Of a stretch of DNA of 64,000 nucleotides, positions 11,287 through 60,800 are shown in pieces. The position numbers and the translations under genes were made by a program. The number at the start of each line of letters is the position of its first letter. Position 1 is the first letter of the stretch. Source of the DNA: Branchiostoma lanceolatum (lineage: Eukaryota; Chordata; Leptocardii; Amphioxiformes; Branchiostomatidae); assembly GCF_035083965.1 (NCBI RefSeq), contig NC_089736.1, forward strand, positions 3,705,001-3,769,000, given 5' to 3'. Under the pieces are notes generated by a model. That model ran no database searches. It was not told the DNA's origin and worked only from the letters and a program-made list of their open reading frames with translations.

Positions 11287-14200
11287 ATGGCGTGCAGACG
11301 GACTTGTGTCCTATTTCTCGCCTGTGGATTGCTCTTGTCGACGGCTGTCTCCATTTTTATCGCCATGAAGACGTGGCGACATCGCCGCTACGTTTCAGTC
11401 AATCAAAATTTGGGTACAAAGGCAGTTTCTTCAACAAACTGGTAAGTTCAGTACGAGGAAATGGCTGTTGGTTATAATCTTGACCAGCTCTAGCTTGTCG
11501 ACCGTTTTGAAAGGATACTTTCCAAACCGTGTGGATAATTCAGTTCAACAAACTGGTAAGTTCAGAATGAGGGTACAATTTGATTATACTCTTGACTAAC
11601 CCCAGCTTGTCGACCATTTTGAAAGGATGTATTCCAAATTGTTTGGATAATAAAGTTCAACAACCCAACAGGTAAGTTCAGAATGAGGATATAATTTGAT
11701 TATAAGCTTGACTAACCCCAGCTTGTCGACCGTTTTGAAATTATGCATTCCAAACCGTTACTTGCAGAATCATCGTATCATACCTTTGAACATTGCTTTT
11801 CTGGGGTGAGTTAAGATACGTTTGTCGGTTCGATGCATTTGAATCTAATATTTCGGCAAGGAAAGGTGTGTGGAACCAAATTTTTCTGGCAGCTCGCTTC
11901 TCTCTTTTTTTTTAATTCTGCAACATGTAAACAAATGGACACTGCCGTCGTACTCAAGCCGACGAGCTCATGCTAACGTCGTTACAAGAAAAAAATACAG
12001 GTCTGAACAATTAAGAAGAAAAAAAGCATATAAACGGGACCGTCCATTACTTCATTCATTTATTTATCTAACCAGCGCACACGCTCGGGTATCTGGACCT
12101 GTTTTTCAGGCTCCCTGGATGCAAATACAATGCACAGACATGATACACAAGGATCACAAGAATTTAAAACTCGGTATCAGTCCTTAAGTCCATTTCTAAA
12201 AGCGGATACGGCAGTGTGTTTTCTTTTGTTTGTACAGGACCTGTGTACGGTCGACTGCTTTTGTATGACTGAACATTTGCCTGTGGTATATGCAGCAAAT
12301 GAGGGTGCCATTTTGTGAGCTGTCTCACAGCAGTGCGCGTCCGTGCTTAAAACTGTAAAAATTGTTTTGTGAGAATGTCTTTAGTAAACGGACCATGAAC
12401 CAGCTTTCGCTTTATGTTTTGTACCATGTACATTTTGTATATGTAATGATATACATGTATGTTGATAGAGTTATTAGGACTTGAATTATTAATTTGTATC
12501 TCTGTTATACTTTATCTGACCCTTCCTCTTCCCTCCTGACCTCAATGAAAAGCGGCCTACATGCCGATTTAAGCTTCTTAACACCGGCACACTTAATTTA
12601 TCTGTACTTTCGGGATTCAGGTAAATAGTAGTGGACAACCTCAGGCCAACCGTACACACTCACGCCACATCGTCAGAAAAGACGCTGTAGCCGCATAGTT
12701 CCCGTTTAGAACTCTATTCACTGCGGCCCACGTACACCGACTAGTTTAGCCTTGTGTGCGGCCAAGTTCAAGGATTAGAGCTCCAATGTGCACAGGTACA
12801 GCGTGTTCTGGCTTCTGTGTCGGGATTCAGGTATTAAGAAGAAACTGCGTCCTTGTGTCAGTCAACCATAACGACAAACACAGTCCTGAAGCGCAGTTCA
12901 ACTCTAAGACGTATGCAGCAGCTCTCAAGTAGGGTACTGAAGGTCGTAGCCTAGTCTTGTTTTTAGGGCTATTGACTTAGGAATTCAGGCCCTAAGTCAA
13001 CAGCCCCAACAATAAGACTAGGTTGTGATCTTAAGTACTCTACTTGAGCGCTGCTGATAGTTACGTTAACGCTAGGACTGAGGTGGTTGCTAAATAGTGG
13101 TCGTCAAGTCATTTAGCTGTGTATTTGTTTAAGCGTTAATGGACATCGTTAGTCCTCATGCGTTCATTGTTGTGGTTGGTTGTAATTCCTAGCAGGTCCC
13201 AATGTAATGTCCTTGGTAAAGGTACACTACACCTACAGTAACTGCAGAAATTTTCGCGGTGAGCTCTTCAAACCACCAATATCTTTCAACTTTTCCACAC
13301 AGGGTCAGCATTCCAAGAACAGTTGAAGCCGCCGAAGCGAAGTTTAATACATCGGAAGTTGAACGGATAAGGTAAGATATTTTTGTCCAGCAAAACGAAG
13401 AATATCTCTTGATATTTCATGCAGGTACATTGTCGTACTCTCCAAGCAGAGGTTGGGGGAAGATTGTGACCGTTTTATCATATGCCCAGTTTTTTGTCCG
13501 CTACCTGGGTGGGGCTAGCGGACAAAAAACTGGGCATATGATAAAACGGCCACATTCGTCACAATCTGCCCCATCAACCTCTGCTTGGAGAGTAACATTG
13601 TCGTTGGGTGTTGTTGTCATTTCGATTCCGATAGGATTCAGGATTTCGGGTTTAGAGCTAACGTTTGAGTAATCGGGGTTTAAGTTTTGAATGAGGCACA
13701 TGCGTTTGAGCAGATAGTGACTTAGATTTGGCATTTAAGCAACTGCAACATTATGTAGTCTTAAAACACAGTCTTTGTTGGGATAGCAGGATTCTCCGGT
13801 CGATTTTGTTCTTTAGTGAATTTAAACAACTTTTGTTCTACCCTTAATAGGAAGTGGGTAATGACGTACTTCAACCCCGGCACAGATCTCACCGTAATAA
13901 AGTCTCAAGTCAAAATAGGACAACTGATCCGATACGAAGTTAGTCGAAAAGCGTACGCCAATATCACTGAGAACTTCTTCCGCCTGATTCCGGAGTCGTC
14001 GCCTCTTCTGAGAAAGCATTTCCGGTCTTGTGCAGTGGTGGGGAATTCTGGAATTCTCCTAGACAGCGGTTGTGGTCCTCAGATAGACTCTGCAGACTTC
14101 GTGTTCAGATCTAACCTGGCTGCTATTGAAGGGTTCGAGAATGACGTGGGGACAAAATCTAACTTCACCACCATGAACCCTTCTGTCCTTAACCACGATT

Positions 14201-14916
14201 ATAAAGGATGTCGCGAAAATAGTACCAGCGGCGCGTGTGAAATGTTCGTGAAACGACTGCGTCTCATCCAGGACCAGATTCTGCACATTTCTGCTTTCAC
14301 CACGGTGAACGGGCGTCAGGACGTGGAGCTTACCAACTCCATGATACTGGAACATCACCTGCCGATCAAGGCTTCATATGCACCCGTGGAAACTACGAAA
14401 AGAATGAAAGCGTGAGTTTTCACTTTGAGTCAACTGTGATGATTATTTTGTGAGAATTCTTTTAGTTCATAGCATCTTAACCACTAGTTGTGTGCTGTTT
14501 GAACGCACAGACAACCTTTTCATCAATCCAAAAGGACTTTCTTCTAATCGCTGTGTTTTCCGTTTGTACTTTCAACATTATATTGAGTGTAGCTGTGCGG
14601 TTTTTTTGCATGCTTTACAAGTGGTTCCTTTCAACTGTTCAGGTTATGGAAGAATTCAGAATTCAAGCCGAAACGACCGTCGACGGGAACCATCTTGTTC
14701 GTGTTATCGGCCAGTCTCTGCGACCAGATCCACTTGTACGGATTCTACCCGTTTTCAAAGGGCAAAGACGGGCGAAAGATAAAATACCATTACTATGGGT
14801 CAGTAAGAAACCTTCGCAACCATAACATGACTGAAGAGTATCGGGCGTTCCAGACGCTCCACCAGCGGAAGGCACTGGTACTGCACACAGATCCTTGTCA
14901 TGACGACAAGCTCTAA
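11287..14916 (+). CDS. ST8SIA: ST8Sia-type alpha-2,8-sialyltransferase, copy b
   Basis: Paralogue of the gene 1.4 kb upstream, same strand. Coding exons: 11287-11441, 13303-13371, 13851-14411, 14643-14916; three phase-2 introns, 1059 nt, 352 residues. The N-terminus MACRRTCVLFLACGLLLSTA is a signal anchor followed by a basic stretch. Exon 2 ends with EVERI, identical to the end of exon 1 in copy a, so copy b splits that first exon in two. L motif RSCAVVGNSGILLDSGCG, S motif RPSTG...SLCDQIHLYGFYPF, motif III KYHYY and VS H-x4-E (HNMTEE) are complete, so the enzyme should be active in the Golgi. The donor of exon 1 is repeated in the intron. A Muller-type hairpin search is not needed to see the 159-bp fold-back in intron 2. 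Subtype undetermined. Confidence 0.92.
11429..11762 (+). repeat. Tandem repeat across the exon 1 donor of ST8Sia-b
   Basis: Three units of about 113 bp starting at about 11429, 11542 and 11655. Each begins TTCAACAA and contains GGTAAGTTCAG, then AGCTTGTCGACC. The first unit includes the last bases of coding exon 1 and its donor. The second keeps the same exon end and donor (CAACAAACTGGTAAGTTCAG); in the third the exon end is altered (CAACCCAACAGGTAAGTTCAG) but the donor is intact. Confidence 0.85.
11763..12834. other. Intron 1 of ST8Sia-b, no further feature
   Basis: Several short open frames occur but none has both splice sites and a recognisable protein. No bounded repeat seen. Confidence 0.5.
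12835..13200 (+). repeat. Dispersed repeat copy with internal fold-back
   Basis: Second copy of the repeat at 4990-5275. It contains an inverted duplication absent from that copy: CTCAAGTAGGGTACTGAAGG at about 12925 pairs with the complement ending TACTCTACTTGAG near 13047, with arms of about 55-60 bp around a tiny spacer at 12980. Confidence 0.7.
13436..13594. mobile_element. Hairpin MITE with 9-bp target duplication
   Basis: The two arms (TACTCTCCAAGCAGAGGTT and its complement) run almost to the centre, giving a 159-bp fold-back. ACATTGTCG flanks both sides (13427-13435 and 13595-13603). A 9-bp duplication is typical of Mutator-like elements; the assignment is inference. It lies in intron 2 of ST8Sia-b. 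Confidence 0.8.
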
Positions 14917-17699: not shown

Positions 17700-20600
17700 T
17701 CTTTTACACCCCAGGTTATTGGAAGATGATGCTGTACACCTGACCATGTTGCTGTGAGACCTGTCTATATCCTGTGTGCCTGTCCATATTCCTGTGTGGG
17801 ACCTGTCTATATCCTGTGTGGGACCTGTCCATATTCCTGTGTGAGACCTGTCTATATCCTGTGTGCCTGTCCACATTCCAGGAGGATTTGCCTGTATTCC
17901 TGTGGGACCTGTCAGCCATCTACAAGACAAGAGTACATCGGACTTTGACTGTGAGTTGCCTTAAATTTTCAGAACTCTTTCAAAAATGGGGTCTGCATGC
18001 TGCAAGGCGTAATCAGCAGTTTGAATGTTGCGCAGTTATAGAAGCCATACTGCTCAGATTAACGATAAGATAGTCTGTGCATTATGCGTGAAACGTCCAA
18101 CCAGCGTGAATGAAGCGTAATACGGGGCCGTTGCTTTCCGCGTCTTGCCGTTTAATGTTCGGACCAACATCAAATGCGAAACACCTAGCCTACACAAATG
18201 AAGCGTAATACGTGGTCGCTGCTTTCCAGAATTTAGTGCAAAGCGTGGTCGGGACCTCCCATGCAGACCCCTAGAAATGGCAATGAAAAATGTTGTGAAA
18301 GGGCATTTCTGTGATCCTCTGAATTTTTAGTTCCAAACACCATTGTTAAAACTCAGGCCCTCCCTTCTGTTTGTTGTCATTTCTGAAAGAATTCACCTTA
18401 TACTAACATCTAGTTTAAGGTTGTGACTAATATTTTATTGCAGATTGAATACAGTACATTTTCCTAAATGGAAGAGAGCACTTGCAATATTGTTTTTTCA
18501 TTCTGTATGGCAAAGGGGGTACATCTTCAATATCATTTGCAATCTGTTTTCCCTGATATCCTCTTCATCACATTAGACTTCATCATTTTGACCTTTTTGT
18601 CTGAAATGAAAATTGTCTATGGAGAAGCAAATTAGTATCAAAGCAACAAAATATTAGGGATGAATCTTAAGTGTAATGCAACAATTGTGGAAAATAAGTA
18701 CCGGTAAGTTGCAGTGATGCAAAAGAATGACAGATACATGTAGGAAATGATAAAAAGTTGTAAACATGTATATGGCAGCAATACAACATCTTTGGGATTA
18801 TGAAAATTTGATTTGTAAAATTATCATCATAGCTTGTTGCTGTTTCTCTCCACCCAGTCCAGTGCAGTGCAGATTTGTTAGGAAGGAAATAAAAGCCACA
18901 TGACTTAGTCTAAAGTTCCACCCTGCTTCACTTAGATTTAGAAGCTATAATTAATGTAGAGCACTGTACAAGCACTGTACCAAAACTACTGATATTTCAC
19001 ATGATGATTTAGACTTCTGTCTTGTTTTTTGACATCAAACAATGTAATTGTGAAGGAAGATAGCAATATAAACCTGAAGGATAAAAGGAGGTTGAAATAT
19101 AATCAAGGCTAATTTCGCACTTTATTTCTCTCAATAATGTGAGTGATGAAGTGGATTTCAGGGAAAATACTTTGGTTACATGAAGACTGTTGGATATGTG
19201 TCCCATTGCTTTACAGAAAATGGAAAAGACAATGTTGTGCTTTCTGTAGAGTGAAATGTACTACAGGTAAGCTGTGATGTTTGAAAGAGAGGAATTGAGG
19301 TAAAGAATCAGCGAAACAAAGATTAATGCATTTTGGATTATTTTCAAAAATACATAATGGATTACAGACATTTTGCCCAGTGCAATTCATGGTTTCTATG
19401 TTGTTGACATCATGTGAAAATGAACATTCAGTAAATATTTTTCATAAGTATGTCTTCCAAATCTCGGCAACTTAAAAACTAATTTTATACGACAGTGTGT
19501 GCATGCATCCACAATTTGATGACACAGGAACACAGTTTGGTAAGTATTGTACAGAATACATGTACTGTATCATTGACTTTTATTCATATCATGGTGCATT
19601 GTACAGTACAGGCTTCAGGATATGCCAACTTGTTGGGATGACGCAAACTTGTTGTTCCATGTGCACGCTGCCACTTTTGCCACTTAATGCAGAATCCTTG
19701 ATCATGAATCTGAAGTATTAAGCTCCCCAAACACTTATTTGTGCGTAAACCCAGACAGTTGGGCATTAAAACTGGGAATTTATCGCCGAAAACAACAAAA
19801 AGAAGCTCGGCAGATGACACAGGTGCCATGTTGGTTACATCATGGCATGTCTTAATCAGTGATCGTGCAATGCCCTTTGACCTCCAGTCCCCTGGTCGGG
19901 AACAAACTTCCAGAAGCAGCACTATTTGCAAGTATTTGTAAACCGGTTGTACCTGCGAGCGGCAGCTTCAGTGTTAAGAATTGCAAAGAAATATGTCCAA
20001 ACTGTTTGGAACCACGCTAGACTCCATTTAACAGGGCCTGATTATTAAAATGGGCTACAAGACACAATCAGCATCTTGCGGTAGTCCCACAAGTCTCTCG
20101 TAAAATCCCAGGGTACGTCCGGCGAAATCTCACATGACTTTGATGCTTATCCCAAAGCCTGTACTGTACAACAATAATGAGATATGCAAGTTGACCAATA
20201 AGTAGTTAACAGTCCAGCCTGTTGTGACCACGCTCGTTCCTGGGTACCATACACTACTGAAGCTAAATGAATACATATGTCGATATTCTGCACGGCATAT
20301 TTCAAACTGGCTGCAAGTTCGATGAAATGACCAAAGCTGCATGGTTAAGGTCGTTTTTACAAATTTTCTAAGAAAAAAAAAAGCATGTACGTTCATCACA
20401 AGCTATATCGTGAAGCGTTGCGTTTTAGGCAGTAAGTTTGTGTATACAGCAATTACATTCTGTGATTCCTGATTTTTTATGGTAGTTCTGTGTTCAAGTT
20501 TTTTACAGTGTACGACAAACTTGTTATCATTACCGTTTTCAAATCATTCGTATGTTGCCCAACAAAATGGTGGCCCTCCTTCACATACTCGCCAATCCTC

Positions 20601-21735
20601 GAATGTTCAAGGCAGAACAATGCAAGGCCTCATGTTTTTTGCTTATTTGTTGCGATACAAGATTGACGATAACTTTTTGTTTTTGTCGAAGCTTTTCGCT
20701 ATGTAACTATGAGCCTGATGCATTTGGTCATTTCATTGAATTTGCACATAGTTTTGAAATATGCAGTGCAGAATATCGTGCGTTACCAATGACGGGCTGG
20801 ACTGTTTACTATTTTTAAGCTAACTTACATATCCCAATTATTGTTGTACAAAAAAAAAGTCATATGAAGGAAAGTCAATGATACAAGTTTCTGAACTGTC
20901 TATGTTCCTGCCCTGGTCATCAAATTGTGGGTGCACACGCTGTTTTATCAGTTTTTAAAGGAAACAAAAGGTTTGGTTGGAAAACTTACTGTGCTAAATA
21001 TACCCTGACGTCAAGTTCTCACCTATTTTACCTAATTTGCGACTCCTGTAACCGTTTGAAAATCGCGCCATAAGTGGCCCGAGGCAAAATGTGAAGGTGA
21101 GAAGCCCTCCCACCTCTGCATTTTGGGGCGTCCCGAAGTGATGTCATGTGTTTAAATGCAGCTGACAAATTCACTCTGTGGTATATTAAGTTTTCCATCC
21201 AAAACCTCTTAGGTTTCCTTTAAGAAATATAAACAGGTAGTCATGAAAGACTTATTTTTGACATGGTCAACAACATGAAAATGTCCCGTTGATGAGTTGC
21301 TTTCTGCTTCAAATGTTGAGATATCATAGTTGTTCCAAATAGCTAAGCAGTTTGACTAATCACAAAAAGAGGAATTGTGTGATCAGTACATGTTGGTGTT
21401 CAAAGCACTCCCCCTATTTGCATATGATAACATAATTAATTGGATTAAGTTTCTCCCGCCGATTCTCTTAGTGCATGGTTTCCTCTCCTAATTTGCATAA
21501 ATTTGCATATTCAGGTCTCTCCTGATTTGCATACTTGGTATTCTTTGCTATTCTTGGGTAAGCAGGCCTGTAGACATTGCACTATGTACATTGTATTGTA
21601 TTTTCAATGCTTTGAAAGCTTAGAATGGATGCGTTCTGTATTACTGTATTAAGTTTACTCATTTCTAAGTGTCTTCGTTCCTTTTCCCTGATCAGTCTGT
21701 GCAAATGTTCTCCCGAGGAATGTCTTTTCTGGAAG
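17700..21735 (+). repeat. Left arm of giant inverted duplication
   Basis: From TTTTACACCCCAGGTTATTG at about 17702 inward, this arm matches the reverse complement of 21741-25685. Clear anchor pairs: 17905-17945 with 25455-25490 (ATCTACAAGACAAGAG), 18475-18600 with 24855-24990 (CTGATATCCTCTTCATCAC), 19490-19620 with 23680-23800, and 21420-21720 with 21760-22060. Similarity by eye is roughly 85-95 percent with several indels. A tandem repeat of 21-45 bp (CCTGTGTGGGACCTGTC-like) sits at 17755-17905. No intact gene recognised inside. Confidence 0.85.
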
Positions 21736-22062
21736 ACATTGGGGCGTCGAAACCCCAGTACACAAGCACATTGACTGACAGGAAAAGGAACGAAGACACT
21801 TAGAAATGAGTAAACTTAATACAGTAATACAGAACGCATCCATTGTAAACCTTCGAAGCATTGAAAATACAATACAATGTACATAGCGCAATGTCTACAG
21901 GCCTGCTTACCCAAGAATAGCAAAGAATACCAAGTATGCAAATCAGGAGAGACCTGAATATGCAAATTTATGCAAATTAGGAGAGGAAACCATGCACTAA
22001 GAGAATCGGCGGGAGAAACTTAATCCAATTAATTATGTTATCAAATGCAAATAGGGGAAGTT
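21420..22062. repeat. Central palindrome of the inverted duplication
   Basis: The innermost arms, about 300 bp each, are the most alike part (for example TTCCTTTTCCTGTCAGTCAA-like sequence against its complement) with a centre near 21735. Each side contains AATTTGCATAAATTTGCATA-type repeats. It could be a fold-back element of its own that seeded or survived the larger duplication. Confidence 0.8.
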
Positions 22063-25000
22063 CTTGGCAGGTGATGATTTGAACACATTGACTGATCACA
22101 AAGAGAGGAATTGTGCGATGAAAGATCAAACTTTGTTAGCACTGTTCAGCTTACTTGGAAAAATTATGATTTGAAGCAGAAAGCAACGTTTTCATGTTGT
22201 TGACCATGTGAAAGTCTTCTTTATTTAGATAATCTTTTATTTCTTAAAGGAAACTCAGAGGTTCGGATGGAAAACTTATTATACCAAATATACCCCAGAA
22301 TGAATTTTTCAGCTCAATTCTTCTTTGATGCCCCCAAAACGCAGGTCTAGAGGTGGGAGGGCTAATATTTTGCCGCGGGAGTGATGTCGGCCACTTATGG
22401 CGCAATTTTCAAATTCCCAAATTAGGTAGAACTTGACGTCCGGGTATATTTAGCACCGTATAGTAAGTTTTCCAACCAAGCCTTTCAGTTTCCTTTGAAA
22501 ACTGATATGACAGCGAATGCACCCACAATTTCATGACCAGACAGTTCGGAAACTTGTATCATTGACTTTTATTTATACTATAGTGCATGTACAATAATAA
22601 TTGAGATATGTAAGTTAGCTTGGCTTGAAAATAGTGAACAGTGCAGCCTGTCATGGGTAATGCACAATATTCTGCACGGCATATTTCAAAACTATGTGCA
22701 AATTCCATGAAATGACCAAATGCATCACCAGGCTAATAAATATGTTATGCTCATATTTAAATAGAGAAAAGCTTCAACAAACTTAACACAAGTTATAGTC
22801 AATTTAGTGTCGCACCAAAAAAGGAAAGACATTAACATGGCACCAACAAAAGCTATTCCACGAGGCTTTGAGGAATGTACATATTAACATTGCCATTCTG
22901 CATTTTTCCAAACTTTTCAAGGTCGAGCAATTGCTTTTACAGTACTTACACAGTAAATTGACAAATCCTTCAGCCACTACCTTTCTAGTACATCCTGTGA
23001 ATTTTTGGATAGTGGTTACAGTAGCAACTGTTGCGTCTTACAGTAAATTTGCAAATTTGGAAGAATGATTAGAACATACGTGGATTGACGAGTATGTGAA
23101 GGAGGGCTGTCTACACAGTACAAAGTTACTGTCTAAAACGCAACGCCTCATGATATAGCTTGTGATGAATATAACGTGTTTTTTTTTCTTGTTGACGCTT
23201 TGCGCGATCACTTCAAATTTGTAAAAACGACCTTAATATGCCATTTCATTAAACTTGAAATATGCCATGCAGAATATCGACATGACATTCGACGTATGTG
23301 GTCACAACAGGTTTACTATTTTTAGTCAACTTGCATATCTCATTATTGTTGTACAGTACAGGCTTTGGGATTATGCACCAAGTCATGCAGGATTTCGTGA
23401 GACGTACCTCGGAATTTGTGGATAGAGTTGTGGGACTTTAAAGGATAGTGTCTTACAGCCCATTTTGTGGTGAGAGAATCAGGCCCTGTTATCTACCATG
23501 GTTCCCAAAAGGTTTGGACATATTTCTTTGCAATCCTAAAGATTTTTAAAATAGTTCGCAAGTTCGGGGTTCACTGACCTCTAAAAAGGTTTTGCCGAAT
23601 TTACTATCTAGCTATTTGTCTATCTCTAACTTACGTGCTAGTCACACAAAATTCCAGGATTTAATACATATACTGAAGCCTGTACTGTATAATGCACTAT
23701 AATATGAATAAAACTCAATGATACAGTACATGCATTCTGTACAATACTTACCAAACTGTGTTCCTGTGTCATCAAATTATGGATGCATGTACTGTCATAT
23801 AGAATTACTTTTTAAGTTGCCAAGATTTGTAAGACATACTTGATATGAAACATATTTTAAACTTTTCACATGTCAAGAACATCAAAACCATGAATTGCCA
23901 TTTGTACTGGGCAAAATGTCCATAAATCCAAAAATGTATAACTGTATATATTTTTTTTTGAAATTCACTGATTGCTTAACTCAATTCCTGACTCTTTCAA
24001 AGTCATCACACAGATGCAGCTTACCTGTAGTACATTTCACTCTACAGAAAGCACAACATGTCTTTTCCATTTTCTGTTAAGCAATGGGACACAATTCCAA
24101 TAATCATCATGTACCCAAAGTATTTTCCCTGAAATCCTCTTCATCACTCATAAAATTGTTGAGAGAAATAAAGTGAAAACCACACAAATTGATGATTCAC
24201 TTGATCAATACCTTGAGTTGATGTAAATTATATACATTTGTTTATTCTTGAGAAGCTGAAATCTCCATGCATGCCCCTTTTCATTGAGGTCATGTCATAG
24301 AAGAGGTAAGAGTAAGACAAAATATAACAGATTTGTTTATTCTTGAGAAGTTCAAATCTCCATGCATGCCCTTTTTCATTGAGGCCATGTCAGAGAAGAG
24401 GTAAGAGTAAGACAAAATATAACAGATTTGTTTATTCTTGAGAAGTTCAAATCTCCATGCATGCCCTTTTTCATTGAGGTCATGTCAGAGAAGAGGTAAG
24501 GGTAAGACAAAATATAACAGAGATATAGCTCAAATCTCCATACATGCCCTTTTTCATTGAGGTCATGTCAGAGAAGAGGTAAGAGTTAGACAAAATATAA
24601 CAGATTTGTTTATTCTTGAGAAGCTCAAATCTCCATGCATGCCCTTTTTCATTGAGGTCATGTCAGAGAAGAGGTAAGAGTAAGATAAAATATAACAGAT
24701 TTGTTTATTCTTGATTAGCTCAAATCTCCATGCATGCCCTTTTTCATTGAGGTCATGTCAGAGAAGAGGTAAGAGTAAGATAAAATATAACATTTGTTTA
24801 TTCTTGAGAAGTTCAAATCTCCATGCATGCCCTTTTTCGTTGAGGTCATGTCAGAAAATGTCAAAAAGGTGAAGTCTAACGTGATGAAGAGGATATCAGG
24901 CAACAGTCTGATTGCAAATGATATTGACGATATACCCCATTACCATACAGAATGAAAAAACAACATTGCAAGTGCTCTCTTCAAAAGGAAAATGTACTGT

Positions 25001-25685
25001 GTTCTCCGATGAATATCTACAATATAATATAAGTCACAACCTTAAACTAGGGATTAGTATAAGAAATGTGAAATCTTTCAGAAATGACAACAAACAGATG
25101 GGAGGGCTAGTTTTGACAATCATTTTATGGTGTTTGGAACTAAAAATTCAGAGGATCGCAGACATGCCCTTTCCCAACATTTTTTGTTGTCCTTTTTAGG
25201 GATCTGCATAAATAAATAAATTGGGAGATTGCGACTACGCTTTGTGCTGAATCCCAGAAGACCGCGGCCACGTATTACGTTCTATTAGATCATTCCGACT
25301 GAACGCTCAGCACGTATTGCACAAATTAAATGTTAAATCAAATGCTCCGGCTTCGAGTTTCGCAAAGTCTAAACGGTTGATTACGCTTTGCGGCATGCAG
25401 ATCCCTATTTTGAAAGAATTCTAGAAGTACAAGCCAACTCACAGTCACAGTCCGATGTTCTCTTGTCTTGTAGATAGCTGGCAGGTCCCACAACACACAC
25501 AGATAGGTCCTCCTGGAACATTCCTCCTGGAATAAGGACAGGTACACAGGACAGCCGACAGGTCCCACAGGAACACAGCAAAGTCCTTCTGGAATATCAA
25601 CAGGCACACAGGATAGCCGACAGGTCCGGCATGGTCAGGTATGCAGTATCAACTTCCAGTAGCCTAGGGTGTAAAATAAAAACTC
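21741..25685 (-). repeat. Right arm of giant inverted duplication
   Basis: Reverse-complement partner of the left arm, ending outward at GGGTGTAAAATAAAAACTC near 25670. It carries a 640-bp minisatellite (24225-24865) missing from the left arm. It lacks the left-arm stretch at about 19680-20100. A short open frame shared by both arms (AIYKTR-x-HRT-x-TVS) ends at a GTGAGT donor in each, which may be a relic exon of the duplicated segment. Confidence 0.85.
24225..24865 (+). repeat. Minisatellite, about 95-bp unit, about seven copies
   Basis: Units contain TTGTTTATTCTTGAGAAG, then CTCCATGCATGCCCTTTTTC and GAGAAGAGGTAAGAGTAAGA. One unit near 24520 is shortened. The array is present only in the right arm of the inverted duplication, so it expanded after that event or was lost on the left. 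Confidence 0.9.
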
Positions 25686-34714: not shown

Positions 34715-35653
34715 AACACACGCACACACACACACACACAAACCTGCAATACAGATACAGACACGGACGGCAATGGACACATAAAAAATCAACATCCCCT
34801 TTTGCTGAAAGGCAGAAAGGAGTAAAGCCATTGGATTACTCACCCGGTTTGTATTCCTGTCTCTTTATCAAACAGTGTGTGAGCATAACTCATTCTCGCT
34901 GGTGTTAGCATGTAGAACTCAACGCCCTTCGATTCCTTAGTTAGCCGTGATAAATGGCCGTATGCCTTCCCGCCTATCCTCATGGTATCGTCCGGACCCC
35001 ATACGACCACTTTAGACCGGTTTTGTCTCGAGAAGATGTGTGTGATCTCCTTTAAAGCATAGGTGAAGCTGCTGTGCGTGACCACGCGGACTGTAGTTCT
35101 GGTTCCGACGTGCTTTTCATACCCTTCAACGGGAGCGTGGTTCATGCGTATCACACACTCCGCCTGGTCGATTTCTGCTCCGGCCGTGTAGTTCAGGACA
35201 TGACCAGATGTGGACACCAAGGCACACACACTACAGCGCATGTTAAAGGCCTGTGGAGTAACACATTAGATATACATTTATTGGACTTGGAAAAGGCAGA
35301 ACGTAAGATCGAGTAATAACACGCTATTTGCACACACTTGCATATTAGTATTCACTGTAGCAATGTACCACATTCACATATTGTGCTATTATAATGACCT
35401 GTACTTAGCTTGTAAGAGCAGAAGCGTACGGTAAAGGTCTTTCTAGTCTGAGAGAGAGAGGGGGAGGGAGAGAGAGGGGGAGAGAGAGTGTGTGTGTGTC
35501 TGTGTGTGTGTGTGTGTGTGTGCGTGCGTGCGTGTGTCTGTCTGTGTGTGTGTGTGTGTGGGGTGGGGGGGGGTGGGTGTGAGAAAGAGAGAGAAAGAAA
35601 GAAAGAGAGAGAGGGAGGGAGACAGAAAGAGCGAGCGAGAGAGAGAGTTTCAC

Positions 35654-41762: not shown

Positions 41763-44700
41763 AGAGTACTGTGGTTTCAGTACACATTGATACTGTTAAA
41801 TTACAAAGGTCTGGACGTTTTCTGGATTCGTCAAATACTTGGGCATAGTCTTAGCTCCCCTGCTCTAATGATAGCATTGAAGATTCAAGATGAAACGATG
41901 AAACTGTATAGACTTCCAAAGGCAGTTGCCAATGATTTTGCTAAGAGAAAATCTCTGTCACCCCTCCCACCTTCCGGATTCGCCAGAGCCTCCTCCATGT
42001 ACGCCGGGAGGATGAGTGTGACAGACTTGGTGCGTTTCAGCCGCTGTGTGCCGTCGTCTTTCTTCAAAATTCCTGGAAAAAAGAGAAAACGCTTGACTGT
42101 ACAGAATAGCTAATCACATACCAACATCATGACAATCCACCCAAAGGTTCTTATAGTATGCTGTTCACTCACAGCAATACAATCTTACAAAAACCACAAC
42201 ATGACCGAAAGCATATCCGTCCAGGCGAAGGTAATTATCAAAACTCAAACTTGAAATACAGTTGTAACGTTATATAAAAACATCACATTTTACCTACGGC
42301 TAGGAACCCAGACGCACTCTTCCTTCTAAGAGTGTTTTGCTGTTTGAGACATTCAGCTGGTGTATATATTATCAATGTGTGTGTATATATTATAAAATGA
42401 ACGTAGATAGTACAGTAAGTAAAGGCCTACAGATTGACGTAGCGATCATTACCGTGGGTAGGTTCTACTGCCAGTGAGCGAACGGATTTGGTTCGGAACA
42501 ACTCGGGGTCGTCTTCTTCGCCTTCCTCTGCAGAATAAAGAAGAGGAAAAAAAAACTTTAAACATAATATCTTTTGTCGTGGTTCTTGAAAATCTGCTCT
42601 CTTCGCCCGTAGCAAAACACTGGTAACGTTGAAGTCCCTCTCATTGGACAGTAAACCTGTGTTTGAGGAAAGCTAAACTTCTAGCACCCACCACACTTAT
42701 CAATAAGAGTACACTATGGGTCCATCCAAGTGAAGTGTGAGTGGATCAAACCTATCAGTCTGTATACGTAAACATATATCTATCTTTTGCATCTTGAAAT
42801 TTATGCACAAAACATTCAGGAGGTTTAACGATCATTTGAAACAAACAAACAAACAAACAAACAAAGTACAACATAAAGGCACGACATGAAAGACACTGTA
42901 CCGCCTCCGGATGAGAAGTCTCCGTCCGTGTCCCTCCCGGTCTCTTCGCCCGTTTCCGGATCCGGTGCGATCTCGGACGGAGGTGCCGACAGTTCGGACA
43001 CCACCGACAGTCTGCGGGGGGTCCTGAACCCGGACGCTACATGGCGGGAAAACATGTGGGGATAGGGTCAAACTTGAAAATAACACTTAAGCTGTTCATT
43101 TGTTTGGTACTAGTTTCTGAGTCTAACCTTTCAACCGAAATGTATGCCAACGTAAACTATGGCCGCAGGATTGGGCTACTATATCCTTTCATCGAATTGT
43201 ACGGATAAAGTTTTTGAAGAGAGCCAGATTAAGCACTAACTTTCTGTTGTTTTAGGTTATTTGTTTTTAACTCACCACTTATTTCTAATGTTGCGTTTGT
43301 ATTTCTTAATTTCTGTCGATTCTATTTGGTGAAATTTTATTATACTTTATAGGTTTTGGGGAGATGGACGCATGAGCTGATGCTGCTTCCTTCCAAATAC
43401 TCTGTAAATGATTGACACTATAAATAAGTCTGGGAAACTCACATGCCATCCGTAAGCGGTGCCTCAGCAGTTTCCCCAGGAACGCGAAGTCCTCCTCCTG
43501 TCCTGGGAAGCTCGTTCCCTGGTCCAGCATATCCAACACGCCTGCGTACTGAGACACCGCCTTGTCCACGGTGTACACACGGGCCTAATGAAAGTGACAC
43601 ATCAAAAAAGTGAAACATTATACAAAAATTGAAAAACGAGAAGGGTGGAGAAAACTTCTGTGGTGCCCCAATGGTCAAAATAGTGAGACTAAGGGATAGA
43701 TGAGAAGATGACATGAGAGAAATACCCGCCTGGAGTATCGAACTGGCTAGGGACTCCCATTTCAACACTAAGGACATCGCCCGCGGACGCACCGTCACTA
43801 CTCCCGCCGTAGCTGAGCGCTCTCCAGAGGCTTGGAGCGTCGTGGGGGAACGCTTTAATGTTTTGTTATGAACGAAGGGTTGTTCAGAAAACTGTATGCA
43901 TACATGCAGTAGGGATTAGGGACCCCCATTTCAGTACCAAGGACATCGCTCATTGGCGCACCGCCACTTTAGCCTTTCCGGTGGTTCAGAGCGGCTTTGA
44001 TGTTTTGTTATGGACGAAGGGTTGTTTAGAAGACTGTATACATGCAGTAGGGACTGAGGACCCTCATTTCAGTACCAAGGACATCGCTCACGGACCTGCT
44101 GCAAGTTTAGTCCAGCCGTATTTCCGCTATACTAGTATTTCCTTATAAAAACGGTTGGCGTTCCTTAGATATAGAAAAGTGAAACTGCTGCATTCACCTG
44201 TACATGCTCGTCCACTCGCTCTATCTCCCGCCTAGCGTCCTCTGCATTGAAAATCAAAGATGGCGCCAAGTCTAATTTTTGTGCGTAGACGTTTGCCAGT
44301 CTTTCCGAGTCGGATGTGTTCTCTGAAAACTGCTGTCCTCGTGACGTCGCTCGAACGCTGTACAACCTCACGCAAAACACCCCGAACTTCTCCTTTTCGG
44401 GAACCAAGTTCGCTCTCATTTCTTTCCTGAAGCACCATGGGATAGTCTTCAGGCCGTGTCTCGCGAACTGCCGGATGATTCTCGTGTCTCGCGAGAGTAT
44501 GACGTCAAGTTCGCCAAACTCGCCCGTCATCGGCACGCATCGGTGGGACAGGTCGAACCGCGAGAAATCACCGACGGTTCCGTAGGCAAAGACGTATCCG
44601 ATGTCGCAACCTGGTAAATGAAACAGAAAGAAGGATTTAAAGTACAGTACAGTAAAGAACGGAAGTGAAATAGAGATTATATTTCTTAAATTTAAGATGG

Positions 44701-50904: not shown

Positions 50905-51190
50905 ATCATCACGGCACGTTTATGGTAAATGTAGCCGTTGAGGCTGTAGCTACGTAGGGGCAGTGGGTTGTTATCCACTGTTTCTGGGCACGGTTTTGGA
51001 AAGCAAAGCCTGGCTTTCCACCGCCTTTTACCTCCCCAACCGAAGTCAGGTACCCATTTTTATGCCTGGGTGGAGTGAGGGAAGTTGTGTAAAGTGCCTT
51101 CCAAAAGGAAACAACGTCTAGCCAGGAATAGAACTCGTGAGCTCTTGATCTCGTGTCCACTAGTCTAGCCACTCAGCTTTTCCACGCCAC
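50905..51190 (-). repeat. tRNA-derived SINE upstream of the globin
   Basis: The minus strand begins GTGGCGTGGAAAAGCTGAGT, has GAGTTCTATTCCTGGC as a B-box, then CTCCACCCAGGCATAAAAAT and a long unique body (GGGTACCTGACTTCGGTTGG). The head is related to the 48850 SINE but the body is different. It ends only about 70 bp before the globin start codon, so it lies in the 5' leader or proximal promoter. Confidence 0.75.
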
Positions 51191-51257
51191 CTCTTTATCG
51201 GATCTATCTGTCAAAGGGCAACTCAGGATCAGAAGCAGATCAAGAATAAAACCGAAG

Positions 51258-53336
51258 ATGGGCAGCGTTGCGTCCAAGTCCGCCTCCAGACGGAAGCATA
51301 AGGGTGCACCCCTTCCGCCTCCGCTGCCTCCTAAACCTCTGGACCCGCGTATTAAACTCGACCCCAAGGAGAAGTTCTATCTTCAGAAATCGTGGAAGAC
51401 AGTAGCGAGGAATGAGGATGTTGCTGCGATGACTATGTTTATCAGGTGTGTGTCACATGTAGTCAAACCTATACTAGTGGTAACCTCTGTCTCTCTCTCT
51501 CTGTCCATATCTACAATGCGACATCCCCCAGTATAATTTACTCGTGCATATCTAAACTACCTGTTTGTGTGTACGGTCTGTATGTATGTATGTGTGTGTG
51601 CGGTGTGTGTGTGTGCGTGTGTGTGTGTGTGCGGTGTGTGTATATGCCTGTGTGTGTATCCAGGTATGACCTGCTGTTCGACCAAACTTCTTCAGAGTCA
51701 TTGATGAAAAGTAGCGGATGCTACTTGAAACGTCTGGCCGTTTCCAAAAGCATATCCAGTTGCTTGATCGAGTAACTGTTATTTGGCATTGTTTAATACT
51801 TGTTGCCATGCATTGTACCGTGTACAATTGTCGTGCAATAAAGGACATTTTCATAATTGTTACCATTGCCCGCAGCCTCTTTCGGTCCAGTCCGGAGATC
51901 AAAGAGAAGTGGCCGCAGCTCCGGAAGTTGTCGGAGGATGAAATGCGGGGCAGTCCATACCTACAGAAGTTATCTGTGAGGATACTGGGAGCGATGGACC
52001 ACGTCATAGGTAAGGGCTAAAATGGGGGCCGAGAACTAATATGCAAATAAGCTAGATTTCTCACGTTTTGCATTTTCGTCGTTTATTAATGATGGAATTG
52101 TGACAAAATGACGGGAATATGTTGGAAATAAGTTACAAATAAGTTACAAATGTGAATCTGAATGTAACTTTTTCAAATTCTTATCATTTGTAGTTTTTAC
52201 CCATCAAATTCTACAATACGTCCCTTTAAAGTCGTGCGATGGGTTTACAAGACAGGGCCATTCTTGGGGCAGTCGTTAACCGTTAGCACCCTGAAGTAGC
52301 CATTTGGCACCCCATTCTCCATTGGTTAGAGAGTTAGGCAGCAGGGAGAAGGTTAAAGTGCCGTGCAAAATTCAGCTGATGAATGCACCAGCTTAAACTT
52401 TTGCCTCCCAGACTCCCTGGACGACCCAGACTACCTGATCCCGGCCCTGGAGAAGCTCGGACAGATGCACGCCGACATGACCAACCCCGTCATCTTACCG
52501 GAGGACCTATGGGTAAGTTAAGTTAGTATGTTATGGGTGCCCATCCCCGTTTCATAGCCCTGGGCCACCCTGTGGTGCAATCACTGCAGCAGGGGGCTAG
52601 TCCACTGGCAGTGGAGTGTGTTTAACTTCCATACTGTTTCATAAGTATGTACCATTTTCATAAAGTCTTTGGTATGACTCAATGCGACTCTTGTCCAGAG
52701 GAGTCCTACCCGGGAGTTGAACTCGGGCCTTCTGGTTCCAAGTAATCAGAACCAGATGTGGTAAGTAACAGAAGCGCAGACCACTACACGATAGGGAGTA
52801 CAAATGTATAAACCACTTATATGAGAGATAAAGGGCAATCATTTTACAGTCTCCTTCCTTCCTTCCTTCCACGGTATGGTCCAACTATTCTGCTGCTAGA
52901 AGCATGGTTTACATGTAGTCAGGCCATTATCTGACGAAATGAGCTTGACCAGTTTAGGCTTCGTCTTCTATTGAACCATCCTAACATAGTCTTCATCAAT
53001 TAACATATAAATTATGAGGTTTGGTTTACAACCTATTAACCCCAGAAACTCGTTTTCTCACGGACAAAAGACTGTGGGTGCTGTCAGAAACGTCTGACGG
53101 TTTCCGCATTTTATCCAGCTGCATGAGTAACAGTTACTGTAACCGTGTGAAATAATTTTCGGTTACCGTTCAAATTTTCTCTACGTCTATGATCTTCACA
53201 GAAGCTGGAGGGACCGTTCCTAATCGCTGTGGGGGAAGTCTTGGAGGACAGGTTCACACGGAAGTACAAGGACATATACCAGAAGTTCATCATTTTCGTT
53301 CTGGAAAGCATCGTCATCGGCTTCGATCCACACTGA
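51258..53336 (+). CDS. Globin with N-myristoylation signal and unusual heme pocket
   Basis: Exons 51258-51445, 51876-52009, 52412-52512, 53202-53336; 558 nt, 185 residues, in frame. MGSVASKS fits an N-myristoylation signal (Gly2, Ser6) followed by RRKHK and a proline-rich linker; membrane-bound globins of the globin X type have such N-termini. Globin fold: Trp46 at A12 (QKSWKTVA), proximal F8 His127 (LGQMHADM), C-terminal H helix (YQKFIIFVLESIVIG). The intron before the E/F region and a B12-type phase-2 intron fit globin gene structure. By ungapped alignment, position CD1, almost always Phe, is Trp75 (KEKWPQL) and the distal E7 position is Leu95 (SPYLQKLS). A membrane sensor or redox role is inferred from the family. 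Subfamily not certain. Confidence 0.88.
52640..52805 (-). repeat. tRNA-like SINE in globin intron 3
   Basis: The minus strand has TCGTGTAGTGGTCTGCG (A-box-like) and CCCGAGTTCAACTCCCGGGT (B-box) about 50 nt later, further apart than in a normal tRNA. The sequence between them does not fold as a cloverleaf by eye. Best read as a SINE or tRNA relic. Confidence 0.5.
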
Positions 53337-54830: not shown

Positions 54831-57800
54831 TCAAAGTTCCTCGCGAGGAGATGACTGGTACAGGCCGTCGAACTTGCTCATGTACTTGCGGACGTATTCT
54901 CGCGCCTTGCTCTTGACATTTTCGTTGACTTCTAGGTCTTCAACATGTCGGCAATGCTTGAGTTCCTTGTTCATGATCCCATGTGTAAGCTGAAAGGAAA
55001 GAGTTTTAACAATTAATATTGACAAAGGGCTACGAAAAGGTAATGGTTCAGTGCAACATATTTTAACAGTGAAAATAGTACGTACTCAAAATCTCCAATT
55101 ACTGTAAATGCAGAAATGTTTGCGGTGGTTTTATGTTCACAGTTTTTTTCCAAAACTGTACTCTGCTGTAAGTATGTGACTGTCGCGAACATAAAGCCTC
55201 CGCGAACACTCCATTTTTGCCTTAGCACGAAATATAAACCACACAAACTTAAAATGCATTTCCAGTATCAGAAATGTACATGTATGAGGGTCTCAGTGTT
55301 TGGTGGATTCAAAGTTAAAAGTTTGTCTTTCTATGCAAAGTAACAAGTTTGATAAGCTGGCATCAAATTAGGCCTTTCCAAATTATAAATTAAAGGCCTT
55401 ATTTGAAAGTTTGCAGTGATATAATTTTGCAGTGTTTAGAAAATGGAGTGTTCGTGGTGGTTGCAAATCTGCAGTTGAAACAATGGGGTAGGTGGGCAGA
55501 AGACAAAACAAGCATTTTTGCGGTGATTCTAAGTTCGCGGTTAAGAGGTCATTGCAAAACATTGAACATAAAATCAGTGCGAAACATTTACAAGGCTTGA
55601 CTTTATTTCATAGCTTTGCCAGGCCTTAACATTTATAAGACCAAAAGACATATAAGTTACTAGTACATTTCCACTCTCAGGATCTAAAACTAAAATAGGT
55701 ATACTAGTAGTAGTATTGGATTATACTGTTGCGGGGTTCCCTGACGCAGGGGTTGGCAGCAGTCGGCCAGTCTTCACACACCGCCTCCAAGCGGCTGTGT
55801 CCAGCGGGTCCACGTTGGTGAGGCCGCACTCTGTAATGTCCTTAGCCTTTGAAATGTTTAAGAAGAGACTGTTACCTTTCTGGCCAGATGTTTGAAGTCT
55901 TCCGTAGATGTGATGCGTCCATCCTTACAGTCCGGCTTCCGGTACGGGTTTAGTATCGACACGACAAAAGTCGCCATCTGAAATACACCAATCAACAAAC
56001 CAATCAACAAACAAGAAAGTAACAAGTAAAATTGGTTTTCTGAAGAAAAGTCTGTCACTGAAAATACTAGTGGTGATATCTGTGCCTGTATCTGTATAGC
56101 TTGTATAACTGGCCTTAAGCGTAACACACTAGCTTTGCAGGCACGCTGCATGACAGCAGCTGGTTATATTACACTGAACAACTTGTCACACCTAACCTTT
56201 GTACATCTATCTGTAAGCAATGTTTAAAGCTATATGTAATGGCTGTAAACAATTCTTACACCTGCATATGAGGATACGACAACATTCTGTCATGTCCGAA
56301 TGGAGAAGCTGAATTTACCAGCCTACTAGAGTTTTGACTGACAAGCATATCATAGCAAATTTATAGAACAGAAAGGAACAAATATAAGGATTTAGACATC
56401 ACTTACCTTTTTCCTGAAGACATCCTTGCACTTGCGTGCCGTCTCACTGGAGGTATCAGCATCAGCCTTGGTCGGTTTCCTCTTACCCTGGTTGGGAAAA
56501 GACAAAATTAGTAATGAGATATGAAAACCAGAAGTCCTACTGCAGTATCTGTATCTATTAGCCGGTATAACTATCAGTGGACTAGCCCCCTGCTGTAGTG
56601 CTTGAAAGTTGTGTGGCTCAATGGCTATTATAAACGAAGATGCGGGAAGGACTTTAACTTTAAGACTGAGAGAATAATACAATGCTGAACTTTCTTCCAA
56701 CACAACATAAATTTTTGACGACCATTGTCGCCTTCTTCAGGATCAATAATGACCAATCACTGCCAATCCGTGAATACCTTAGTGATGGAAGAAAGTTTAG
56801 CATTGTATTATGATCACTACCAACACAGATGAGCTTTCATTATAAGACTGAGAGAAGTTGTTACCTTGTGATGATCGTCGTGTGTCGGTGTTCCCAGGTC
56901 CATGTCTGCCTCGTCCCCTCCCAACTCTGGCTCGTTACCGATACCATCCCACGACGGCGGGTCCCACTGGGTTTGTCTGGGGGAATAACAACAACAGGAA
57001 ATTGTTTTTTGCACTGTAAATGCGAGCTTTTGTGTGGTGAATTAGATTTGATCATTTTAAAAAGTATCATGCCAGGCATACCTACATATATACAGGGTTC
57101 TCAACAGAATTTTTTCACAGTAAAGGGGTTAGGTACAGAAGGCCAAATTTGTGTGGCACAAGTCGCACATGGTGTGTGGAAGACATGGGTCTGAGGTCTG
57201 GATTCTTAATCCTTAACACAATTTCCTACATTTTGAGGGACAAACTTTGTGAAGTTAATTCTTCCATTTATTACAGCCAAATCTATTTTACGTTGTGAAG
57301 ATCCATTGATCCATTCATGCATCCCTCCCACTCCATCCATCCATGATTTATCCTTCCTTCCCTCCATCCCCCACCTACTGTGTGACAGCATGGTAGTAGT
57401 AGACTTTACATACCGTGTAACAGCATGGTAGTAGTAGACTTTACATACCGTGTAACAGCATGGTAGTAGTAGACTTTACATACCGTGTAACAGCATGGTA
57501 GTAGTAGACTTTACATACCGTGTAACAGCATGGTAGTAGTAGACTTTACATACCGTGTAACAGCATGGTAGTAGTAGACTTTACATACCGTGTAACAGCG
57601 TGGTAGTAGTAGACCTTACGTACCTTGTAACAGCGTGGTAGTAGTAGACCTTACGTACCTTGTGACTGCGTGGTAGTAGTAGACCTTACGTACCTTGTAA
57701 CAGCGTGGTAGTAGTAGACCTTACGTACCTTGTAACAGCGTGGTAGTAGTAGACCTTACGTACCTTGTAACAGCGTGGTAGTAGTAGACCTTACGTACCT

Positions 57801-60800
57801 TGTGACTGCGTGGTAGTAGTAGACCTTACGTACCGTGTAACAGCGTGGTAGTAGTAGACCTTGCCCTCCTGATCCCTGGCTGCCCTCCAGTTGGGCGGGA
57901 GCCTCAGCATGCGGGGTTTGGGGGGAGAAGGAATGTCTGGAGGCTGCATCACCATTGGCTGGGGCGTCACCATCACTGCCTGCTGTAAGGAGGATTCAAC
58001 AAAACATCAGAACTAAATTACGGTCACTTCCAGGGATGTCCCTATTGCTCAACTGGTACCAACCTCACAGTTAAGCTCCTTTTTCCAATTAGTTGGTAAC
58101 TTAGAGAACCTGGTTAGGGCTGGACCCATCTTTCAGAAAGGACGTAAAAAGGGGTACAGTGTTCAAGGAGGTGAATCAATCACGTTAACGGGAAAGGGCT
58201 AACAACCTCTTCAGGTAGAAATATACCCTACTACTGAAACAGCAAGGAAACTTGCTGACCTATGACTGTATGACTATTCCTACAAAGGTCTGAACAAACC
58301 AAGGAATGAACAAACAAACCTGTTGTATGGGCTGCATGACCTGAGTATGGACCAGTCCAGACTGGGAGTAGGTGACGTTAGGCTGGATCATCACACCCTG
58401 AGGCTGGGGGTAGAACTGGCTGTCTCCGGGACCGGGCTGGATGTACTGAACCTGTGATAAGGGAAAATCAATCAATTAATCAAACTTTTTTAGTCAACAC
58501 TTCAATGAATAGTTTCAACAGGTTGGTTAATCTCTGGATACCATGTTCTTTTTCATCCCCAGACAATGGAGGTGGGTAGCGTGGGACGGGAGCATAGGAT
58601 TTTTGAATTCAGTTCTTCCAACAGAGATCAGGATTCAAACAATGTAAATCTAAGGCCGTGATATGTACTACCATGTATTGATGATATTAAGCGTTTTATT
58701 CAAGCCAACGTTTCAGTGACCGTTGCAAGTACATGACCAGTACGGGTTAGACTATATATCAATGGCCAGGTGGTCTTTGTGCAGAGGTAGCCAATTGTAC
58801 AGGTTTAACTTGAGGGAACGTGAAGTCTGAGACATGAAGAAAGTCTGACCTGTGGTGGTTGAGGTAGGACTGCTCGAGGCGGTGGTTGTGGTTGCACGTA
58901 GGTGGGTTGCACTGTGTACGTCATTGGCTGGGAAAAAGGAAAAAGCACATCATTCCTACAGCTGTAAAACACACAAGTCTGAGAAGAAAGCCTGTGCCTT
59001 GCACAGTGTCATTGAATGAATATACTGGTAGTCAGGTAACTTTTCCTTCCATGCAGAATTCTTACTTTACGATGCCTGACAACTAAGAAAATAAAGTGGT
59101 CTGGACTTCGGAATCTGTATCTGTACAGCTGGTATAACTGCCTTTTGACATACACACCAGTTTCGCAGGCACACAGCGTGGCAGCAGCTGGTTAAATTAC
59201 ACTAAAAAAACTATCACATTATTATTATTGGGTAGGCCGAATACTCTCTCTTCGCAGCCAGGGGCTGAATTGCGAGGAGCGCACAATTGGAGGGGCTAGA
59301 TTGCAAGGGTATAATTCTAACTGCAAGCGTTCTTCAAAGCTATCTAGTAACAATGCCCCTATTGTTCTTGGTGGTAACAAATTCCACTCTACGACAGTTC
59401 TAGGAAAATACGAATTTTCGAACACATCAATCCTAAGTTGGTTTTCTTAAAGACATGACCACTTCTTTTTTGAGCTGAGACATGATAGTATGTACAATAT
59501 ATCCAATGTTGTCAGAAGCATTTACTATCTGCACTTCACATCAAAACCCACCTGCTGGTACACAATGTTCTGCTGCTGCTGTGGAGGAGGTATCTGGTGT
59601 GGTGGAACGATCGGCGGCTGTGGAATGTCGAAAGGAGGCGGCGGATGTTGTTGATTCACTACGTAGCTCACTGGCTGGCCCTGCTCCCATTGCTGCTGCT
59701 GCTGTTGTTGTTGTTGTTGTACTGGTGCAGCTGGCAGTGGTTGGGGTGCTACTGGGAGTTGCTGTTGCGGGGCCTGAAAAGGAACACCAAGAAGAAGAGT
59801 TAGAACCAGATATTGTTGACCACATAGATTCGAGGTTGTTGTTGTACTGGTGTAGCTGGCAGTGGTTGGGGTGCTACTGGGAGTTGCTGTTGTGGGGCCT
59901 GAAAAGGAACATCAAGATGAAGAGTTAGAACCAGATATTGTTGACCACATAGATTTGAGGTTGTGGTTGTACTGGTGTAGCTGGCAGTGGCTGGGGTGCT
60001 ACTGGCCGGGATTTGCTGTTACAGGGCATAACAAATGAATACCAAGAAAAATGTGTCAAAGAGCAGTTGTACATCATCGAGGTTGGCATGAGTTCTACAT
60101 TTGAAGTTGTGGTTGTACTGGTGCCGCTGGCAGTGGTGCTACTGGGATTTGCTGTTGCGGGACCTAACAAATTAATATCAGGGAAAAGGCTTAGAATCTT
60201 ATCTTTCGTGAGAAGGAAAGCTGATCTGAATAAGTAGACAACATCTAAGATCTTGTGCAGTTGATCCAACTCAAATAACGATCAGTCAACATGTGAATTA
60301 CCTATTACATGCCCCTAGTATATGTCTGAAGTTATAATGATGGAATAATAACATCACAACAAAAATCTTAAATTAGTAAAAAGCCTTACAGTGCAACAAT
60401 GATGAACCATATTTTTGAGAGGTATAAGGTACATCACTAGTCCTGAACTTTACATATCATTTTGAAGAACAGATCTGATTGGCCAGCTGGCAGCCAATCA
60501 GAGCCCTTTACCTGTGGTGGTTGCTGCATGTGGCTGACCTGAGGAGAGGGCACGGACTGTACCACTACTGCCGGGGGTGGCTGGCTGCTCGCAACTGCTG
60601 GATGGACTGGCACATTAGACTGAAAACAGAGTAAAAAACATTTGTTTATAGTTGCACTGTAACTTGGCACTTCAAGGTCCAGCATATTTGTTTCTTAGTT
60701 CAACAAAGACTTTGACGGAATGGCTTTCTTTCTCCATTAAATGGACAGAAAAGAAAGACCAATTGCAACTGAAGGATGTTTCCTTAGATGTGGATGCATA

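Follow-up and report, generated by a model that had tools for sequence, protein, structure and literature searches.

When an intron begins with copy after copy of its own 5' splice site, two questions arise: how such a structure came about, and which of the donors the spliceosome would use. We studied such a case in the lancelet Branchiostoma lanceolatum, within a stretch of 64,000 nucleotides of contig NC_089736.1, here called the window. All positions are those of the window, and the features under study are collected in Table 1.

The array and its host gene

The gene that hosts the array is SETD2, of the animal type judging by homology, in agreement with a previous sequence-only reading of the locus. 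The product of the last five exons matches the WW domain and, C-terminal to it, the SRI domain in Pfam, and its best PDB match is to human SETD2 chains (E 4.4e-80). The gene model is on the minus strand, from 63312 to about 54836, and contains 11 two-ended exons plus a terminal exon. The catalytic SET domain would fall upstream of the modelled exons; the window stops at 64000.

The lengths of nine of the 11 two-ended exons are divisible by three, and the two exceptions, of 146 and 112 nt, flank the intron that contains the array. That intron, of phase 2, interrupts the WW domain within residue 49. Of the 30 WW residues (Pfam match 27-56), about 23 come from the exon before it, with the junction inside residue 49, and not half of the domain as had been proposed. 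It can also be seen that this is the sole intron outside phase 0 among those between the 11 modelled exons. The acceptor of the WW exon is of the NAGNAG type (ACAGCAG, 57979-57985, minus strand), so that the exon may start at 57982 or 57979, and one residue could be gained or lost.

Tandem Repeats Finder (TRF) recovers the array at exactly the coordinates first reported, with a period of 35, 13.9 copies, 96% matches, 0% indels and a score of 764, well beyond anything expected by chance. Each unit, read on the minus strand, consists of 26 nt of exon end (GTCTACTACTACCACGCTGTTACACG and variants) followed by 9 nt of intron start (GTACGTAAG or GTATGTAAA), as expected if the minisatellite grew from the exon end plus its donor, which had also been suggested. 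The join itself reads ...GTTACACG/GTACGTAAG, and 57834 is the last exonic base. Stepping by 35 nt from 57833 to 57378, one meets a GT at all 14 positions; donor 1 is authentic and the other 13 are decoys. The earlier count of 13 splice sites is thus one short, the 14th being ACA/GTAGGT at 57378. Donors 1-7 continue as GTACGTAAG and donors 8-13 as GTATGTAAA, while donor 14 is degenerate. The AAG reported before GTACGTAAG in units 8-13 is found at donors 2-7 in the order of transcription, since the earlier count ran along the plus strand. In every unit a second GT follows 4 nt downstream of the main one.

Table 1. Features of the window that are discussed in the text. A slash marks an exon/intron join; U1 energies are in kcal/mol.
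Feature	Position	Strand	Basis and remarks
SETD2 exon, proline-rich linker and most of WW domain	57834..57982	-	gene model; Pfam WW, E 4.7e-13
Host intron, 857 nt, phase 2	56977..57833	-	gene model; array fills roughly its first half
Next SETD2 exon (QTQWDPPSW...)	56865..56976	-	gene model
SETD2 C-terminal exons with SRI domain	54836..56487	-	gene model; Pfam SRI, E 7.1e-27
35-bp minisatellite	57376..57862	-	TRF and unit dissection; part of its first repeat is the true exon end
Authentic donor (donor 1), ACG/GTACGT	57832..57833	-	sole main-series donor with intact WW-SRI product; U1 energy -6.7
Proximal block, units starting GTACGTAAG	57589..57833	-	decoy donors 2-7 (57798 to 57623), AAG/GTACGT; U1 energy -8.0
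Distal block, six units starting GTATGTAAA	57379..57588	-	decoy donors 8-13 (57588 to 57413), ACG/GTATGT; U1 energy -7.1
Degenerate 14th donor, ACA/GTAGGT	57377..57378	-	array far edge; U1 energy -6.4
Second SETD2 boundary repeat, four copies, outer two degenerate	59710..60196	-	TRF (59710-60005), blastn, repeat search
Probable third boundary repeat, 116-bp unit	11430..11758	+	exon from ORF alone
Family 29 sialyltransferase stretches	8475-9062, 13765-14412	+	Pfam
Family 29 sialyltransferase stretch	34843-35265	-	Pfam

Reading frame and donor strength

In the gene model, joining donor 1 to the exon that starts at 56976 restores VTRQTQWDPPSW and leaves the SRI domain intact. Use of donor 2 shifts the frame, leads to a stop in a later exon and loses the SRI domain, while donors 3-14, as well as full retention of the intron, run into a TAA at residue 62 counted from the start of the WW exon. 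The frame shift and the TAA had both been read correctly from the sequence. Of the 13 decoys in the main series, 12 lead to a stop inside the extended exon. The further claim, that no donor but the first preserves the frame, holds for the main series and fails overall: if the GT at +4 of unit 2 were used, 39 nt would be added without loss of the frame or of the SRI domain. The splice products with a disrupted frame would be expected to undergo nonsense-mediated decay.

The donors were scored by the energy of their duplex with the 5' end of U1, calculated with ViennaRNA duplexfold and with the register not fixed. By this measure six decoys are clearly better than donor 1, six are slightly better and one is slightly worse (Table 1). 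That 12 of 13 surpass donor 1 bears out the proposal that the decoys stand in a similar or better context than the real donor. The GT at +4 is weaker than the main GT in units 1-13 (-5.1 or -1.6 kcal/mol) and reaches -9.2 kcal/mol in the edge unit. Among the 11 authentic SETD2 donors, whose energies range from -6.5 to -11.5 kcal/mol, donor 1 is the third weakest; two others are slightly weaker, and it is not exceptional for the gene. If U1 energy alone decided, donor 1 would receive only about 1.6% of the use among the 14 main-series donors.

Two ways in which the right donor might be favoured, or the decoys used, were considered and rejected. Decoys could be hidden in RNA structure; predicted accessibility ranks donor 1 sixth of 14 with a window of 80 and seventh of 14 with a window of 150, which is no advantage. 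Recursive (ratchet) splicing through the AAG/GT units was dismissed by reasoning only, as steps of 35 nt are too short for introns and the units have no pyrimidine tract.

Other repeats in the window

The SETD2 gene contains a second boundary repeat (Table 1), at an acceptor. Its unit of about 125 bp comprises the intron end, the acceptor and the first 64 nt or so of the exon 59773-59552, and its copies, which extend out to 60196, are 100, 96, 83 and 78% identical to the unit by blastn. Reading on from the first decoy acceptor, CTTTTCAG/GCCCCA at 59898, one meets a stop inside the copy. What the copies encode is a shortened form of the exon start, followed by a stop.

The repeat at 11430-11758 is probably a third one, with an exon that is read from an open reading frame. 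Its unit starts within the final 12 nt of an ORF resembling an N-terminal signal-anchor exon, which is probably a first exon. The GTAAGT donors at 11442, 11556 and 11672 have U1 energies of -9.1, -9.1 and -12.1 kcal/mol, the outermost being the strongest. A tblastn search within the window found no paralogue of the exon before this array, the best other match having an E of 0.026.

In total, six TRF arrays in the window score at least 300, and three of these six touch an inferred exon boundary. An enrichment of minisatellites at boundaries is not demonstrated by this: when blocks are placed at random in SETD2, 75% (487 bp) or 55% (296 bp) of them meet a boundary, and 26% and 34%, respectively, meet exactly one. 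In a gene as dense in exons as SETD2, overlap with a boundary alone is not significant.

The remaining arrays and features can be described briefly. At 24236-24855 a 95-bp unit is present in 6.7 copies; most units carry a donor sequence of the GTAAG type, and an open frame spans several of them. We found no evidence of a gene there; in a search of the window the unit peptide matches only itself and, weakly, 12582-12529. The array at 43852-44110 is separated by some 55 nt or more from the point where an ORF without an assigned family ends, and was, like the array at 24236-24855, left unassigned. By eye, in the ORF list, the array at 17753-17913 resembles a stretch near 25341-25650 and seems to belong to a dispersed repeat. 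The two sialyltransferase stretches on the plus strand are 66% identical. A possible N-terminal globin exon at 51141-51533 (plus strand) has one weak PDB match (globin 5ziq, E 0.0044) and no Pfam match at 0.01. An inverted repeat at 21449-22019 gives the same peptides on both strands in the ORF list, for example VSPADSLSAWFPLLICINLHIQVS.

Origin of the array and what it means for splicing

Tandem repeats of exon/intron boundaries, with unstable length and reportedly normal splicing, are known in amphioxus as mirages; the available text of two papers names Adh3, TnC, BflGb6, BflGb9 and PGBD5 (PMC3087553, PMC3902484), the TnC and PGBD5 cases being added by the second (PMC3902484). As far as mirages are described there, the SETD2 array is like them in several respects: the 35-bp unit spans an exon/intron boundary, the repeats carry decoy splice signals, the coding join at the authentic site is intact, and both 5' and 3' boundaries are affected, as they are in the SETD2 gene (PMC3087553, PMC3902484). 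The unit length lies inside the range given for the Adh3 mirage, 10-72 bp. The lancelet repeats of PGBD5, of 60 and 108 bp, likewise lie over 5' and 3' splice sites; from what the available text reports, they differ from the SETD2 array in having few, imperfect copies (PMC3902484). SETD2 is not among the genes named in these texts, and its array has 14 donors (PMC3087553, PMC3902484). In the literature that we searched, which covers few subscription journals, no report of a mirage in SETD2 was found; a coral annotation among the papers names the gene. Judged by the available text, the phenomenon itself is already described in amphioxus and the SETD2 array is a good new example of it. The significance of the array is reduced accordingly.

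In the Rogers model, and in Gao and Lynch 2009, introns are said to be gained by tandem duplication of sequence that bears AG/GT. The SETD2 array shares the duplicated proto-splice sites with this type of intron gain. However, it lies inside an existing intron and no new intron is evident. In another lineage, human tandem repeats at exon/intron boundaries that change the structure of genes (PMC2812944) and TERT VNTR6-1 (PMC11830802) are, according to the available text, also minisatellites that touch splice choice. VNTR6-1 differs in that it works by way of G-quadruplexes, and that text does not present it as a repeated splice site (PMC11830802).

From the observed anatomy of the array we infer how it may have grown. 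Exon and intron have an AAG in common, immediately ahead of the repeated GTCTAC. This 3-nt match perhaps primed a first duplication, which would have copied the 26 nt of exon end together with the 9 nt of donor. Later slippage or unequal exchange would have expanded the array to its roughly 14 copies, drawing time and again on the exon-end copy. The present shape of the array, two homogenised blocks and beyond them a far edge that has decayed, is consistent with repeated slippage or unequal exchange.

The variation among the repeats bears on the source of new units. Repeats 1-13 differ at six sites; the four exonic ones are all synonymous, and the other two are at donor positions +4 and +9, outside the core. 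VYYYHAVTR is still encoded by all 12 intronic repeats (2-13), and even the change from CG to AG remains Arg, because the next exon begins with A. With an expected silent share of 29-33% for random changes, and transition weights of 1-4, six silent sites of six have a P of 0.0005-0.0013, in a test that was devised after seeing the data, assumes independent changes and relies on our own choice of which donor positions count as silent. When the far-edge repeat is included, a change from Arg to Gln that is not silent makes it six of seven (P 0.003-0.006). This pattern hints that new units may be seeded from, or exchange with, an exon copy under coding selection; if the exon-end copy is the recurrent source, as we propose, the intronic copies would carry only variants that the exon tolerates.

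The same silence could be chance in a young, neutral minisatellite in which the exon copy plays no special role. There are few variable sites, the two homogenised blocks are what ordinary turnover gives, and the count drops from six of six to six of seven when the edge repeat is included. Against this, the probability of so many silent changes is 0.0005-0.006 depending on how they are counted, and we consider such neutrality rather unlikely. That the array was inflated or misassembled is hardly credible: tandem repeats are prone to error and one mirage was, by the available account, aberrantly assembled in a draft genome (PMC3087553), but simple stutter would not be expected to give two distinct blocks that differ at fixed positions, nor a far edge that has decayed, and the array is less than 500 bp in total.

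A functional role would go further. The decoys could rival donor 1 or sequester U1, so that the unproductive share of pre-mRNA depends on copy number and the length of the array sets the dose of SETD2, as in a splicing rheostat. The U1 energies and the stops met by 12 of 13 decoys fit this, and TERT VNTR6-1, with its 38-bp unit, is a precedent for an intronic minisatellite whose effect on splicing can be proportional to its length, by another mechanism, G-quadruplexes, in the available description (PMC11830802). However, the published mirages are reported, in the text available, to leave regular splicing undisturbed (PMC3087553, PMC3902484), and we regard a rheostat as quite improbable. Tuning of SETD2 dose through copy number is possible, and unsupported. 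A more elaborate version, a self-renewing array in which the coding-constrained exon end keeps seeding donors, the length of the decoy train sets the share of productive SETD2 splicing, and copy number, heritable and perhaps somatic, tunes H3K36 methylation, appears slightly less probable still.

In our judgement the array is probably a mirage, that is, an intronic minisatellite that arose by tandem duplication of the SETD2 exon/intron boundary, is fed from the exon and has decoys that are mostly tolerated. The match of the unit to exon end plus donor, the anatomy shared with published mirages, the second boundary repeat in the gene and the probable third in the window speak for this reading. 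Regarding splice choice, the spliceosome most likely still uses mainly donor 1, defined together with the upstream acceptor; the small share that U1 energy alone would give this donor, and its lack of any advantage in predicted accessibility, speak against it. The decoys would then be mostly tolerated noise, and their products would be destroyed.

The silent-only variation offers a testable idea, namely that such arrays grow from the exon outwards. Further, the SETD2 array is a natural experiment in which the spliceosome has to choose among 14 near-identical donors 35 nt apart, while pairing with U1 favours incorrect ones. Should donor 1 be used cleanly, in line with what is reported for other mirages, then position or exon definition would have to override a bias in U1 energy of about 60-fold, a crude estimate that follows from the expected share of donor 1.
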